Part shown: positions 19,463 to 25,497 of the stretch, piece by piece
Numbering within the stretch: position 1 is the first letter of the stretch
Layout: each line of letters starts with the position of its first letter
From: Epilithonimonas zeae
Lineage (GTDB): Bacteria; Bacteroidota; Bacteroidia; Flavobacteriales; Weeksellaceae
Length of the DNA: 64,000 bases
Reading direction: 5' to 3'
Assembly (NCBI RefSeq): GCF_023278365.1
Contig: NZ_CP075338.1
Span: 1,736,001-1,800,000 of the forward strand
Notes under the pieces: model-generated
Databases searched by the model: none
Told to the model about the DNA's origin: nothing
The model's input: the letters and a program-made list of their open reading frames with translations, nothing else
Made by a program: the position numbers and the translations under genes

Positions 19463-20356
19463 CTACTCTTCCCTAACTGTATATTTTTCAAGAATATAAT
19501 AAGTAAGCGGACGCAGATCACTTCCGTTTTCCGGATTGATTCCATTATCTGTAAAAAACTCTACTTCGTTCTGATACTTAGAATACCAAATATTTTTAAT
19601 AGAACTAATTGTATCAGGCTGAGTTATCTTTTTGAAATTAGCCACTTTTTTAGGATCAATTGCAATTAAATTATTTTTAGTCTGATTACAATCTTCCGGA
19701 ACATATTCTTTTCCATTCCAATACATACACTGCTTCGTTGCAGCTAATAATCCTAACCTATTTCGATTAGTTTCTATTTCTGGTTTCTTTTTATCTGCTT
19801 TATACATTTTATTTCCAACAAACAAACCGCCACAAAGAATTGCCCCAACGATTCCTAAGTTGCTATGTTTAGTCAAAAATTCCGGAATATTAAAAATAGG
19901 ATTATTAGTTACTGTAATAAATATTTTAGAAAATTTCTCTGAAATCGATTCTTCATCATCGTTAATACTAACCTTTACTGTTGTTGACTCGCCAGTCGTT
20001 TTTGTTAATGTATAGTTCTTACAAAAATCATCGTAATCTTTATATCCCACATATTTACTTAATTGGTCCAATGTAATACCATCAATATAACGATCCTTAT
20101 TTTTTTGAACTAAATCTGTATAATACCTTTCAAACATCTTATCTGTTTTTGCAGATCCAAATAAACCTTCAAAATGAGTACTAAGATATCCGGCAAGATA
20201 ATTTTTGCTGACATTTTCTTTTCTCAACTCTTTTTCTGCTTGCTCAAAAGCTGTTTTAACTAAAGTTTTCTTCTTTTCATACATATACTTTAATTGAAGA
20301 ATTAATTCCGTGTCCAAATTAGACAAATCCCTGTCTGAAAAATTACGGTTTTCCAT
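19463..20356 (-). CDS. Unrecognised single-TM protein
   Basis: This 297-residue protein is read from ATG 20356 (MENRNFSDRDL); starts at 20374 (ATG) or 20380 (TTG) are also open. Residues ~10-125 are helical and contain LAGYLSTHFEG, KMFERYYTDLVQKN and LSKYVGYKDYDDFCKNY. I associate this arrangement with an uncharacterised Bacteroidota regulator-like domain. A membrane helix lies near residues 172-190 (LGIVGAILCGGLFVGNK), followed by a ~100-residue tail with CMYWNGKEYVPEDCN. So the helical domain is probably cytosolic and the tail periplasmic, or the reverse. It is divergent from the twin peptide genes and could be their partner. Function unknown. Confidence 0.65.
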   Translation of the reverse strand: MENRNFSDRDLSNLDTELILQLKYMYEKKKTLVKTAFEQAEKELRKENVSKNYLAGYLSTHFEGLFGSAKTDKMFERYYTDLVQKNKDRYIDGITLDQLSKYVGYKDYDDFCKNYTLTKTTGESTTVKVSINDDEESISEKFSKIFITVTNNPIFNIPEFLTKHSNLGIVGAILCGGLFVGNKMYKADKKKPEIETNRNRLGLLAATKQCMYWNGKEYVPEDCNQTKNNLIAIDPKKVANFKKITQPDTISSIKNIWYSKYQNEVEFFTDNGINPENGSDLRPLTYYILEKYTVREE

Positions 20357-20397
20357 AAAAATGATACAATCCATGTCCAAATCGTGTCCAGCTTCTG

Positions 20398-20671
20398 TCT
20401 AGGAAAAAAGACCCTATTTGATTGAAATTTGTAATCAGAAATCAGTGATAAACAAAACCTTACAAAAACAAAGTTACAAAACTGGTTTCAAAAAACAACC
20501 TGATAAGACGGAGGACAATCTCTGACTTGGGAAGCAGAAATTTCTCTTCCGTTTTTGAAGGTTACTTCCCAAAAATTTAAGAAGCGCTTCTTTTTTCAAA
20601 ACTGTGTAAACCTGCTCGTGATCTGTTTCGCGGGGAAGAACACGAATGTCAATTTTTAAATTTTTAAAACA
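20398..20671 (+). other. Structured non-coding leader before peptide genes
   Basis: No ORF of note lies here. On the plus strand, TTGGGAAG (20527-20534) pairs with CTTCCCAA (20565-20572), with an inner CTTCC/GAAG pair. A palindrome AAGAAGCGCTTCTT with a T run follows at 20579-20597 and looks like an intrinsic terminator. Further on, CGTG and CACG flank a GC-rich loop (about 20617-20644). There is no plus-strand gene upstream of this terminator other than argS, which has its own. The segment may therefore be a small RNA or an attenuator for the peptide genes. Confidence 0.4.
20579..20597 (+). terminator. Terminator or attenuator in leader
   Basis: Perfect palindrome AAGAAGCGCTTCTT followed by Ts, 75 bp before the first peptide gene and with no coding sequence before it. 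Confidence 0.5.
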
Positions 20672-20833
20672 ATGCTAAACTTACTTTTAATATTATTAGG
20701 ATTGATTTCAAATCCTTCAGACTCGAATAATACGTATAATTGTGGAAGCGACGGGAATACTACTACAGCTTCAGCACCACAACCAAATCCAGGTGATACG
20801 GGTGGAGATGAAGGACATACTCCGAGAAAATAA
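20672..20833 (+). CDS. Small exported-type peptide, copy 1
   Basis: This 53-residue peptide starts MLNLLLILLGLISNPS, a hydrophobic signal-like N-terminus with almost no positive charge. A low-complexity Ser/Thr/Asn middle with one Cys follows, then the tail NPGDTGGDEGHTPRK. A second gene 55 bp downstream shares the N-terminus and the tail motif but not the middle. Conservation at both ends, at DNA and protein level, argues that the reading frame is real and translated. It has its own terminator directly after the stop. No known family was recognised. A secreted signal or modified-peptide precursor is possible (inference). Confidence 0.65.
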   Translation: MLNLLLILLGLISNPSDSNNTYNCGSDGNTTTASAPQPNPGDTGGDEGHTPRK

Positions 20834-20838
20834 TTATT

Positions 20839-20866
20839 AAGGCAGTAAACGTTTACTGCCTTTTTG
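20839..20866 (+). terminator. Terminator after peptide gene 1
   Basis: Perfect inverted repeat GGCAGTAAAC / GTTTACTGCC followed by TTTTTG, starting 8 bp after the stop codon. Confidence 0.9.
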
Positions 20867-20888
20867 TTATATTTAAAAATTTCAACAA

Positions 20889-21038
20889 ATGATACAATTA
20901 CTTTTAATTTTATTAGGATTGGTTTCAAATCCTTCTAATCAAATTTCAACCAATGACGGAAATTCCACTATCTCAACCCAACAGTCTCTTGTGGGCGATA
21001 CGGGTGGAGAAGATGGACATATCCCAATTAAAAAATAA
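20889..21038 (+). CDS. Small exported-type peptide, copy 2
   Basis: This 49-residue paralogue of the preceding peptide has N-terminus MIQLLLILLGLVSNPS (13 of 16 residues identical to copy 1), a diverged Ser/Thr/Gln-rich middle without Cys, and tail VGDTGGEDGHIPIKK. The acidic pair after GDTGG is inverted (DE to ED) while GH and a following Pro are kept, which suggests selection on the tail. It also has its own terminator. It sits 67 bp before a periplasmic-TPR histidine kinase. Function is unknown; a ligand for that kinase is a testable idea. Confidence 0.65.
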   Translation: MIQLLLILLGLVSNPSNQISTNDGNSTISTQQSLVGDTGGEDGHIPIKK

Positions 21039-21047
21039 TTTATTTTA

Positions 21048-21082
21048 ATAAGCGAAATTATATAGTTTCGCTTATTTTTTTT
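21048..21082 (+). terminator. Terminator after peptide gene 2
   Basis: ATAAGCGAAA / TTTCGCTTAT inverted repeat with a short AT loop and a T run. It ends 23 bp before the kinase start codon, so kinase transcription must either begin inside this stretch or read through. Confidence 0.85.
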
Positions 21083-21105
21083 AATTTCGGGATAAACTAA
21101 TAATC

Positions 21106-22764
21106 TTGAAAAGTTATATTTTTTTTCTATTTGTATTCATTTATTCTTGTTCAGAGAAAACATTTTCCGATACAAAACCTGTCAATAATTTTTACGAAAA
21201 AGCTTGGGAATATCTTGACAAAAGAGAAAACATAAACGCTTTTATTGAGTTTGAAAAAGCAAAAGATTATTTTCTGAAAGAAAGAGACAGCTTTGGAATA
21301 GGAAAATGTTTAATGAATATGGCAATCATTCAAGAGAAAATGGGAGATGGTTTTGGCAGTCAGGAAACTGCTATAAATGCTTTATCTTATTTTAATGAGA
21401 AAAATATTGGCCATCAAGATTATCTATCAACAAACTATAACACTTTAGGAATTACGGCCAGCAAATTAAAAAACTATAATAATGCTGTAAAATTCTATAA
21501 AAAGGCATTGAGTTTTACCACAAATCTACAGGACAAAATAATTTACCAAAATAATTTAGCAAATAATTACACCAAGAATAAAAATTATCATCAAGCCATA
21601 AAGATATTCAGTAATACGTTAAAAATTGACAATCATAAAGATGTTAATTATGCAAGAACATTAACAAATTTAGCAAAAACAAAATGGCTTCAAAACCCCA
21701 GTTATAATCCAGTTACAGATTTTCAGAAAGCATTAAAAATTAGACTAAAAGAAAAAGACCTATGGGGATTGAATTCGAGTTATGCACATCTAGCAGATTA
21801 TTATTCAAATAATAAAACGGATTCAGCATTATTTTATGCTAAAAAAATGTATTCTGTTGCCAAAGAATTAAAAAGTCCGGATGATCAGATTGAAGCTTTA
21901 CAAAAATTAATTTTTCTAGAAAATCCTCAAAACTCAAAAAGATATTTTACCGTTTATCAAAAACTAAATGATAGTCTTCAAACCGCAAGAAATAAAGCTA
22001 AGAATCAATTTGCTCTCATCCGATATGAAACTGAAAAAAACAAAGCTGATTTTCTGAAGGCAAAAGCTGAAAGTGCCGAGCGACAAAATCATATTATTCA
22101 GCAATATATTGTGATTGGCATCGTAATATCATTATTGATTTTATCAACTTATATATTCAAAAGAAGACAGAAAAGACTTCAGCAAGAAAAACTCTTAGAA
22201 GTAAAAAACACAGAACTAAAAATCTCCAAAAAAGTCCACGACAAAGTTGCCAACAGAATTTATCAATTGATGTCACAAGTTGAAAATACAGAAATAATTG
22301 ATAAAGATTCTCTTCTGTTCGGATTGGAAAATGCGTACGAAACTTCCAGAGATATCTCTTATGAAAATAAAGACATCAACGAAAATCAAAGTTTTTCTGA
22401 ACAGCTTTATAATATGCTGAATTCTTATTCTTCAGACGCTGTGAAATTTATTCCCATCGGAAATAATGAAAAACTCTGGGAAGGTGTCAGTTTTCAGAAT
22501 AAAACAGAAATTTACCTGGTTCTTCAGGAATTGATGACGAATATGAAAAAGCATAGCCAAGCGAATATCGTTTCCATTAAATTTTCTAAAGACAATTCGA
22601 GAATAAATATCTCATATACAGACAATGGAATAGGAATTAAGAAACTTTCTCCAAAAAATGGTCTGCAAAATATGGAAAACCGTATTAATGCTATCAAAGG
22701 AACAATTATTTTTGACACAGAAACAAATAATCTATTGAAAATCAACATTTCATTTCCAGTCTAA
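21106..22764 (+). CDS. Lipoprotein-type TPR sensor histidine kinase
   Basis: This 552-residue protein starts at TTG 21106, chosen because it alone yields the signal MKSYIFFLFVFIYSCSEK with a lipobox ending in Cys. TPRs run from about residue 25 to 290 (for example FGIGKCLMNMAIIQEKMGD, NLANNYTKNKNYHQAIKIF). A coiled linker and a membrane helix (about 334-352) follow. The HisKA_3-like dimer helix has phospho-acceptor His378 (KKVHDKVANR). The ATPase domain carries an N-box near Asn479 and DNGIGI at 506-511. The TPR domain should be periplasmic. The response regulator gene follows after 10 bp. Confidence 0.92.
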   Translation: MKSYIFFLFVFIYSCSEKTFSDTKPVNNFYEKAWEYLDKRENINAFIEFEKAKDYFLKERDSFGIGKCLMNMAIIQEKMGDGFGSQETAINALSYFNEKNIGHQDYLSTNYNTLGITASKLKNYNNAVKFYKKALSFTTNLQDKIIYQNNLANNYTKNKNYHQAIKIFSNTLKIDNHKDVNYARTLTNLAKTKWLQNPSYNPVTDFQKALKIRLKEKDLWGLNSSYAHLADYYSNNKTDSALFYAKKMYSVAKELKSPDDQIEALQKLIFLENPQNSKRYFTVYQKLNDSLQTARNKAKNQFALIRYETEKNKADFLKAKAESAERQNHIIQQYIVIGIVISLLILSTYIFKRRQKRLQQEKLLEVKNTELKISKKVHDKVANRIYQLMSQVENTEIIDKDSLLFGLENAYETSRDISYENKDINENQSFSEQLYNMLNSYSSDAVKFIPIGNNEKLWEGVSFQNKTEIYLVLQELMTNMKKHSQANIVSIKFSKDNSRINISYTDNGIGIKKLSPKNGLQNMENRINAIKGTIIFDTETNNLLKINISFPV

Positions 22765-22774
22765 AATAATACCT

Positions 22775-23440
22775 ATGTTTACAAAAATTCTTATTGCCGA
22801 AGATTACGAAAGTTCTAATATATCTGTCCAAAAAGCATTAGAAGACTTAAAAATTGCCAATCCAAAATATGTAAATTATTGCGATGATGCATTTAGCAGA
22901 ATCAAAATGAGTTTACAAGAAAACAATCCCTTCGAACTACTGATTACAGACCTTTCCTTTGATGAGGATCACAGAGAACAGAATCTTAAAAATGGTCAAC
23001 AGCTTATTTCTGCAGCAAGAGAACTTCAACCAAATCTGAAAATTATTGTTTTCTCCGTTGAAAAAAAGGAAGTTATTATTGAGAAACTTTTCAAGGAACA
23101 GCAAATCAATGGTTATGTAAAAAAAGGCAGAGAAGACGTCAAAGATTTGAAAAAAGGAATAAGAGCGGTTTATAACAATGAAAAATATATTTCTTATGAT
23201 TTGAAAACGAACAGCTCTGAAAGAAATTCTTTCGAATTCTCTGAATATGACATTCTAATCGTTTCTTTATTAGCTAACGGCATTCTCCTTAAAAACATAC
23301 CTGATTATTTGAAAGAAAATAACATCAAACCGGCAAGCATGAGCGCTGTTGAAAAAAGATTAAAAGAAATTAAAGAATCTTTGGATATCAATAGCAACGA
23401 ACAGTTGATTGCTTTTTGCAAAGATTTTGGGATTATCTAA
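22775..23440 (+). CDS. NarL/FixJ-type response regulator
   Basis: This 221-residue protein has a receiver domain (1-125) with acidic pair Glu9-Asp10 (IAEDYES), phospho-acceptor Asp59 (LLITDLSF), and a Ser then Lys in IIVFSVEKKE. The C-terminal ~65 residues (EYDILIVSLLANGILLKNIP, SAVEKRLKEIKESLDIN) form a LuxR-like helix-turn-helix. It is the obvious partner of the kinase 10 bp upstream. It should bind DNA when phosphorylated; candidate targets are the neighbouring peptide genes or the downstream operon. A terminator follows. Confidence 0.9.
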   Translation: MFTKILIAEDYESSNISVQKALEDLKIANPKYVNYCDDAFSRIKMSLQENNPFELLITDLSFDEDHREQNLKNGQQLISAARELQPNLKIIVFSVEKKEVIIEKLFKEQQINGYVKKGREDVKDLKKGIRAVYNNEKYISYDLKTNSSERNSFEFSEYDILIVSLLANGILLKNIPDYLKENNIKPASMSAVEKRLKEIKESLDINSNEQLIAFCKDFGII

Positions 23441-23500: not shown

Positions 23501-23574
23501 TTTTACGGATTTCCGTAAAAAAAGAATTTGAGACAGGGCTACTTTTGGATTGTTAAACAAGTAAAAAAATAACA

Positions 23575-24989: not shown

Positions 24990-25268
24990 ATGAAAAAACT
25001 ACTTTTTACTTTATTGACATTAGGATTATTAATCCCAACAACTTACGAAGCTTCAGCAAAAAATTATTCAAATACAGAATTTTTTGCTAAAAGACAGAAG
25101 AAGAAAAAATCTTCTAAAAAGAAAAAAACATCAAAATCGTACTCAAAGAAAAATAGCTGTACATACAACGGTTATCCGTTAGAAGTGGGACCAAGAGGCG
25201 GATGCTATTATTGGTCAGGAAACAGCAAAGAATATGTGGACAGAAGCTACTGTTCAGGATGTAATTAG
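24990..25268 (+). CDS. Small secreted Lys-rich protein with Cys motif
   Basis: This 92-residue protein has a signal peptide (about 1-23), then a strongly basic stretch of Lys and Ser (about 34-52). A compact C-terminal module follows: CTYNGYPLEVGPRGGCYYWS, then KEYVDRSYCSGCN. The module has four cysteines and ends in SYCSGCN. The GPRGGxYY core resembles the PBCV-type basic adaptor repeat by eye. The next gene carries the same module behind a lipoprotein signal. The basic part could bind DNA, peptidoglycan teichoic-like polymers or acidic glycans. Function unknown. Confidence 0.7.
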   Translation: MKKLLFTLLTLGLLIPTTYEASAKNYSNTEFFAKRQKKKKSSKKKKTSKSYSKKNSCTYNGYPLEVGPRGGCYYWSGNSKEYVDRSYCSGCN

Positions 25269-25293
25269 GTTTTTAACACTTTAGAATTTGACT

Positions 25294-25497
25294 ATGAAAA
25301 AAATAATTTTATTTTTTATAATCTGTTTATCATTTAATTCCTGTTCTAGAAGCGGAGATTCAGATGGAGATTCAAACAGAAGATGTACTTATAATGGACA
25401 CACATTATATGTAGGAGAAAAAGGTGGCTGCTATTATTTATCCTCTGGCGGAAATAAGGAATATGTAGACAAGAGCTATTGCTCAGGATGTAATTAG
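25294..25497 (+). CDS. Small lipoprotein with the same Cys motif
   Basis: This is 67 residues from ATG 25294 (a TTG at 25288 is also in frame but weaker). The signal MKKIILFFIICLSFNSCSRSG has a lipobox ending at Cys. An acidic linker (GDSDGDS) is followed by the module CTYNGHTLYVGEKGGCYYLS and KEYVDKSYCSGCN. The final seven residues are identical to the previous gene. So the two genes are a duplication of one module placed on different N-termini: basic and secreted versus acidic and lipid-anchored. The next gene starts 2 bp after the stop. Confidence 0.7.
   Translation: MKKIILFFIICLSFNSCSRSGDSDGDSNRRCTYNGHTLYVGEKGGCYYLSSGGNKEYVDKSYCSGCN

Follow-up and report, generated by a model that had tools for sequence, protein, structure and literature searches.

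A conserved module of small peptide, leader RNA and membrane protein beside a TPR sensor kinase in Bacteroidota, and its possible role in peptide signalling

Introduction

Peptide signalling is mainly known from Gram-positive bacteria. Among the closest described systems are the RRNPP systems (Rap, Rgg, NprR, PlcR, PrgX), and a recent survey of them was limited to Firmicutes and viruses (PMC10075063). As in these systems, the locus described here has a small, putatively exported propeptide gene adjoining a TPR receptor, and asparagines are conserved in the TPR helices (here N112, N150 and N188); in the RRNPP receptors the key asparagine anchors the peptide (PMC3601992). The RRNPP receptors are cytosolic and their peptide is imported, whereas here a signal sequence and a transmembrane segment (TM) would put the TPR domain outside, and the setting is Bacteroidota instead of Firmicutes, with an RNA and a membrane protein in addition. 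The agr and Com peptide-sensing two-component systems also have the peptide gene, the kinase and the regulator in one locus, and agr has an RNA tied to its circuit (RNAIII), but here the RNA is in the peptide leader, the sensor is a TPR domain, and neither an AgrB-like processing protease nor an ABC exporter was present among the neighbouring genes scanned. The outline is like RRNPP or agr-type signalling, but the locus belongs to neither, as its receptor would not be cytosolic and the genes scanned nearby include no AgrB.

Three other systems share single traits with the locus. In Porphyromonas gingivalis, also of the Bacteroidota, the surface protein PorA feeds the sensor kinase of PorXY (PMC7712824), but PorA is a large type IX protein with the conserved C-terminal domain, and the peptides here are 49-71 aa and encoded beside the kinase. 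MgrB, which acts on PhoQ, and other small membrane regulators of kinases are tiny membrane-anchored proteins next to a kinase sensor, as could be the case here; MgrB is however induced by the response regulator, while the operator at this locus follows the type of the divergently encoded membrane protein, which we call Div. The layout that we propose for Div, with a cytosolic DNA-binding domain, one TM and an outer domain, is that of ToxR and CadC, but Div has two unrelated N-domain families and neither matches a known DNA-binding Pfam family.

The module is real and conserved, and apparently undescribed, as Rfam, Pfam, NCBIfam and the literature searched yielded no description of it. We tentatively propose, while leaning towards doubt, that it is a new Bacteroidota communication system, widespread in the group, in which a periplasmic TPR kinase would read an exported peptide whose gene is expressed behind a new pseudoknotted leader RNA. 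A membrane-bound transcription factor that evolution exchanges in its DNA-reading domain and its operator at once would control this expression. If this is true, Bacteroidota gain a genetically encoded peptide signal and its receptor in a single locus, which would open peptide, kinase and regulon to direct tests.

Results

The window, the whole stretch of 64,000 nucleotides of Epilithonimonas zeae that was analysed, holds the following features at the locus.

19463-20356, minus strand: Div, single-pass membrane protein and candidate membrane-bound transcription factor
20343-20358, unstranded: palindrome TTACGGTTTTCCATAA, a degenerate TTACGG-N4-CCGTAA
20374-20401, unstranded: operator-like array TGTCCA-N5-TGTCCA-N5-TGTCTA, three direct repeats with an 11-bp period
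20424-20431, plus strand: GAAATTTG, resembling the Bacteroidota -7 box (..TTTG conserved in alignments), before the leader RNA
20438-20671, plus strand: leader RNA, with covariation and a match to model R1, no Rfam match
20672-20833, plus strand: pepA, putative exported peptide of 53 aa with the tail GDTGGDEGHTPRK
20839-20868, plus strand: terminator-like hairpin and T-run after pepA
20889-21038, plus strand: pepB, 49 aa, a tandem duplicate of pepA that lacks a leader RNA of its own
21047-21084, plus strand: terminator-like hairpin and T-run after pepB
21106-22764, plus strand: periplasmic-TPR sensor kinase of the DesK/HPK7 type, TTG start, 552 aa, TPR and HATPase_c
22775-23440, plus strand: cognate response regulator, receiver and C-terminal LuxR-like HTH

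A preliminary description of this DNA had claimed two tandem genes of 53 and 49 aa with a common N-terminus and tail, a terminator behind each, and a TPR kinase with its response regulator downstream. All of these are present. The two peptides have in common the pattern M..LLLILLGL[IV]SNPS ... GDTGG[DE][DE]GH.P, and the hairpins are at 20839-20862 (10 bp) and 21047-21076 (13 bp). The twin is a local duplication. The tail pattern was found in the own genome (3.94 Mb) only at pepA and pepB, and not at all in the reversed control; among 120 host-family genomes only G000 had two tail matches, and each of the other loci examined had one peptide, so that the twin is peculiar to the host genome. The proposal also depended on the peptides being translated, and a codon comparison in five groups gave a pN/pS of 0.27-0.32 for the peptide frames, which shows that they are translated and under purifying selection.

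One search of a GTDB genome collection yielded 80 loci with homologous kinases, which span Weeksellaceae, Sphingobacteriaceae, Chitinophagaceae and Flavobacteriaceae. A short peptide was encoded near about 64 of the 80 kinases, usually 50-650 bp upstream. In Weeksellaceae, Sphingobacteriaceae and Chitinophagaceae the tails are GGDTGG-like and contain G[HQ]; in most Flavobacteriaceae a lipoprotein signal is combined with a CCGDxG[DH]IPPPPP-like tail, and a few have acidic tails. The signature of a hydrophobic N-terminus together with a tail was seen in 48 of the 96 short ORFs that closely precede the kinase as compared to 1 of 1291 elsewhere in the 80 loci, and that single match was a true copy that had been relocated. 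Co-occurrence of the tail with the TPR kinase had been set beforehand as a refutation test: the 120 whole host-family genomes gave 16 tail matches (reversed control 0), and all 16 adjoin a homologous TPR kinase and Div.

In the homologous loci that were checked, the kinase gene was directly followed by that of the response regulator. From its N-terminus, the kinase has a signal, the TPR domain and, behind a TM at about 333-351, a core that matches DesK by fold and has H378 within KKVHDKVAN. This arrangement fits the earlier claim that the TPR domain should face the periplasm. The claim of a lipoprotein-type kinase holds only in part; a lipobox is there, but FIYSC is a weak one, and in many homologues its place is taken by an ordinary signal sequence. 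Among the TPR residues that are conserved are N112, N149, N150, N188, R213 and S225, and three of them, N112, N150 and N188 (conserved to 92-100%), form a ladder with 38-aa spacing on successive repeats, followed by S225. The closest solved folds to the sensor are TPR proteins with bound extended peptides, for instance LGN, and together the ladder and the LGN-like fold lend support to a sensor that may bind peptides.

The own genome has a second TPR kinase with a regulator at 2970384-2975036, with 42% identity to the first and without peptide, RNA or Div. The asparagine ladder is equally conserved in this paralogue, and therefore it can be taken to mean that the sensor would bind peptides, but not that it would bind this one. 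Since about 16 of the 80 kinases also keep the ladder without a peptide alongside, the ligand of the TPR domain may be another peptide. It is conceivable that the kinase and the peptide cassette, sharing a locus, could be functionally separate.

In alignments of the loci, a non-coding stretch of about 230 nt upstream of pepA proved strongly conserved. It is kept from Weeksellaceae to Chitinophagaceae and folds into these elements, all on the plus strand.

20438-20446/20481-20489, plus strand: stem P0
20505-20513/20547-20555, plus strand: pseudoknot stem PA
20527-20534/20565-20572, plus strand: pseudoknot stem PB
20579-20592, plus strand: palindromic hairpin P2
20604-20607/20640-20643, inner 20615-20621/20627-20634, plus strand: stem P3

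PA and PB make up an H-type pseudoknot supported by covariation. Both sides change in 20 of 42 pairs in the Flavobacteriaceae alignment, where 53 covarying cells were counted as compared to 20.8 after shuffling, and none of 500 shuffles reached 53. The corresponding numbers are 22 and 4.5 for Weeksellaceae, and 51 and 13.5 for PB and P2 in all 50 sequences; the signal is lost once the pairing partners are slid. P2 is a 12-nt palindrome that is kept by compensatory change, with GCGC, GGCC or ACGT centres. Neither the window nor six homologous loci gave a credible covariance-model match in Rfam 15, and a known riboswitch or sRNA was dropped as an explanation for that reason. P2 was also considered as an sRNA terminator and rejected, because no T-run follows it directly in Pedobacter and several Chryseobacterium forms.

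A covariance model of the leader RNA, R1, matched 16 of 297 genomes from the phylum, with one copy in each. Fifteen of the matches adjoin a TPR kinase together with the peptide, Div or both; the last is inside a 909-aa frame and is an apparent false positive. The model matched 32 of the 120 host-family genomes, nearly always once each, and all 24 newly fetched RNA loci of the host family hold the kinase and Div. A single host-family genome in the sample, G404, had two matches (C46 and C32). Relocated RNAs were looked for where the kinase has no peptide, and only weak matches without peptide or Div were found, except in Bizionia, where the kinase and regulator have Div, RNA and peptide as one block on their downstream side.

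Div, RNA and peptide stay together when they move. Div is present at 50 of 51 peptide loci, mostly with 345-383 bp between its start and the ATG of the peptide gene, and at none of the 17 kinase loci that lack the peptide. A profile search found it in single copy in 28 of the 297 phylum genomes, including all 15 that are truly RNA-positive, and most further Div loci that could be re-read have the peptide and the TPR kinase, while in several the ORF filter gave no clear reading. In the window the ATG of Div is at 20356, and no stop interrupts the frame as far as a TTG at 20380. An N-terminal domain is followed by one TM and a C-terminal domain with the motif CMYWxGKEY...WYxKxxxxxEFFT. No Pfam or NCBIfam family matched Div, no recognised Pfam DNA-binding domain was found in it although the TM is present, and the fold search gave no match with E below 0.5. 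Both Div and the leader RNA are conserved, and neither family turned up in Rfam, Pfam or NCBIfam. A single-TM protein encoded elsewhere in the own genome (3374733-3375158) is similar to Div in its N-domain (E 1.4e-4), and in light of this the Div-type N-domain may be a wider Bacteroidota regulator domain.

Direct repeats with an 11-bp period are located between Div and the RNA. Matches at lag 11 numbered 121 in Weeksellaceae as compared to 4.5 after shuffling, and 137 as compared to 6.9 in Flavobacteriaceae; the array of the window is unique in its own genome at up to one mismatch. GAAATTTG, between the repeats and the RNA, is probably the promoter element of the leader RNA.

The N-domains of Div belong to two families, unrelated by profile comparison, and the repeats differ between them. 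Counted without regard to kinship, the first family (46 loci) has TTTCC, TGTCC or TGTCA arrays and never GGAAT (0/46), and the second (15 loci) has GGAAT in 14. In Weeksellaceae, all 7 loci of the KFLxxKKKL subtype have TTTC, and 13 of the 14 loci of the other subtypes have TGTC by script, the fourteenth having TGTC too when read by eye (Fisher p 7e-5 for the pairing, kinship again ignored). Sister kinases, such as those of loci L013 and L018, differ in Div subtype and operator at once, and the argument from co-switching holds despite the uncorrected ancestry because the switch is repeated between sister lineages. Two Chryseobacterium-like genomes, L027 and L104, have a Pedobacter-type N-domain together with a Pedobacter-type operator, and the kinase of L027 groups with Chryseobacterium in spite of this. 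These two seem to be exchanges of Div and operator type between genera, with the peptide tail still host-like.

The simplest reading is that the N-domain of Div would bind the 11-bp repeats, and Div is probably an operator-binding regulator. Because its N-domain type changes together with the operator repeats, the transcription factor for the peptide gene is likely to be Div rather than the response regulator, and Div probably switches the gene on. The response regulator was also considered as driving the peptide promoter through the repeats, but this was rejected, as the repeat core follows the N-domain of Div while the HTH of the regulator is conserved.

Discussion

The model that we propose begins with Div, a membrane-spanning DNA-binding protein that would read the 11-bp repeats and control one promoter. 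The transcript would hold the pseudoknotted leader RNA first and then the short peptide, which would be exported through the membrane and initially stay anchored in it, by a lipoprotein-type anchor in Flavobacteriaceae, and in Weeksellaceae and Sphingobacteriaceae by its hydrophobic N-terminus. Its C-terminal tail, which is conserved, would then occupy the groove of the periplasmic TPR domain, either released or still tethered, and set the activity of the kinase, and through it the response regulator. The analysis shows the conserved architecture, the translation of the peptide, the fold of the RNA, the joint switching of Div N-domain and operator and the asparagine ladder of the sensor; DNA binding by Div, export, the tail-TPR contact, the sign of its effect, the role of the RNA and the regulon are inferred.

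Signalling from tail to kinase is the best explanation of the locus as read from its sequence, and we give it about an even chance of being right. The evidence is stronger for Div controlling the peptide gene than for a peptide ligand controlling the kinase. The Weeksellaceae peptides have no Lys or Arg ahead of the hydrophobic stretch, which is unusual for a Sec signal, and no processing site or transporter was identified for the peptide; both facts weaken the case for signalling from tail to kinase.

In another explanation, modelled on NlpE for Cpx and PorA for PorXY, the peptide or lipopeptide carries no message between cells but marks export or lipoprotein traffic, and the TPR kinase senses its mis-sorting or pile-up. 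The peptides of Flavobacteriaceae are clearly of lipoprotein form, the strong terminators favour plentiful peptide relative to kinase, and in one species of the Bacteroidota PorXY receives a signal from the surface by way of PorA (PMC7712824). The C-terminal tail is however conserved, although such a marker needs little beyond its signal sequence, and the Weeksellaceae forms have no lipobox; we consider this explanation unlikely. Just as unlikely, in our judgement, is a local feedback of the MgrB-PhoQ kind, where the membrane-tethered peptide modulates the kinase of the same cell, Div, or both, and no message passes between cells. It would agree with a small, membrane-anchored peptide that is nearly always encoded beside the sensor, and with the C-terminal domain that Div itself has across the membrane, but an MgrB-type loop needs a response regulator that drives the peptide promoter, of which there is no sign; the operator follows Div.

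The strong conservation of the RNA core, its covarying pseudoknot and the preserved palindrome of P2 could also mean that the RNA is the main product, RNAIII-like with a dual function or controlling translation of the peptide, and that the peptide is secondary. This is improbable, since the RNA looks like a leader, lying in each family no further than 130-156 nt from the ATG of the peptide and having no T-run after P2 in Pedobacter, and since the peptide itself is under selection. That the small genes are unrelated to the two-component system and stand beside it by chance, for which only the general caution towards genome-context arguments speaks, is hardly credible and already contradicted by the enrichment of the signature upstream of the kinase and by the kinase adjoining every tail match and newly fetched RNA locus of the host family. 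Signalling from tail to kinase remains the reading that we prefer.

Two further observations were made around the locus. The palindrome TTACGG-N4/5-CCGTAA recurs at 23503-23518 in the window and at 122150, 1540456, 2709983 and 2971159 in the own genome, of these copies, one precedes the next operon and another is close to the response regulator of the paralogous kinase; as a site for the response regulator it was rejected, because it occurs at few, scattered places in the genome and outlines no clear regulon. Downstream, at 24990-25268 and 25288-25497 of the window, are two tandem genes for small secreted proteins with the common C-terminus GGCYY..S....KEYVD[RK]SYCSGCN.
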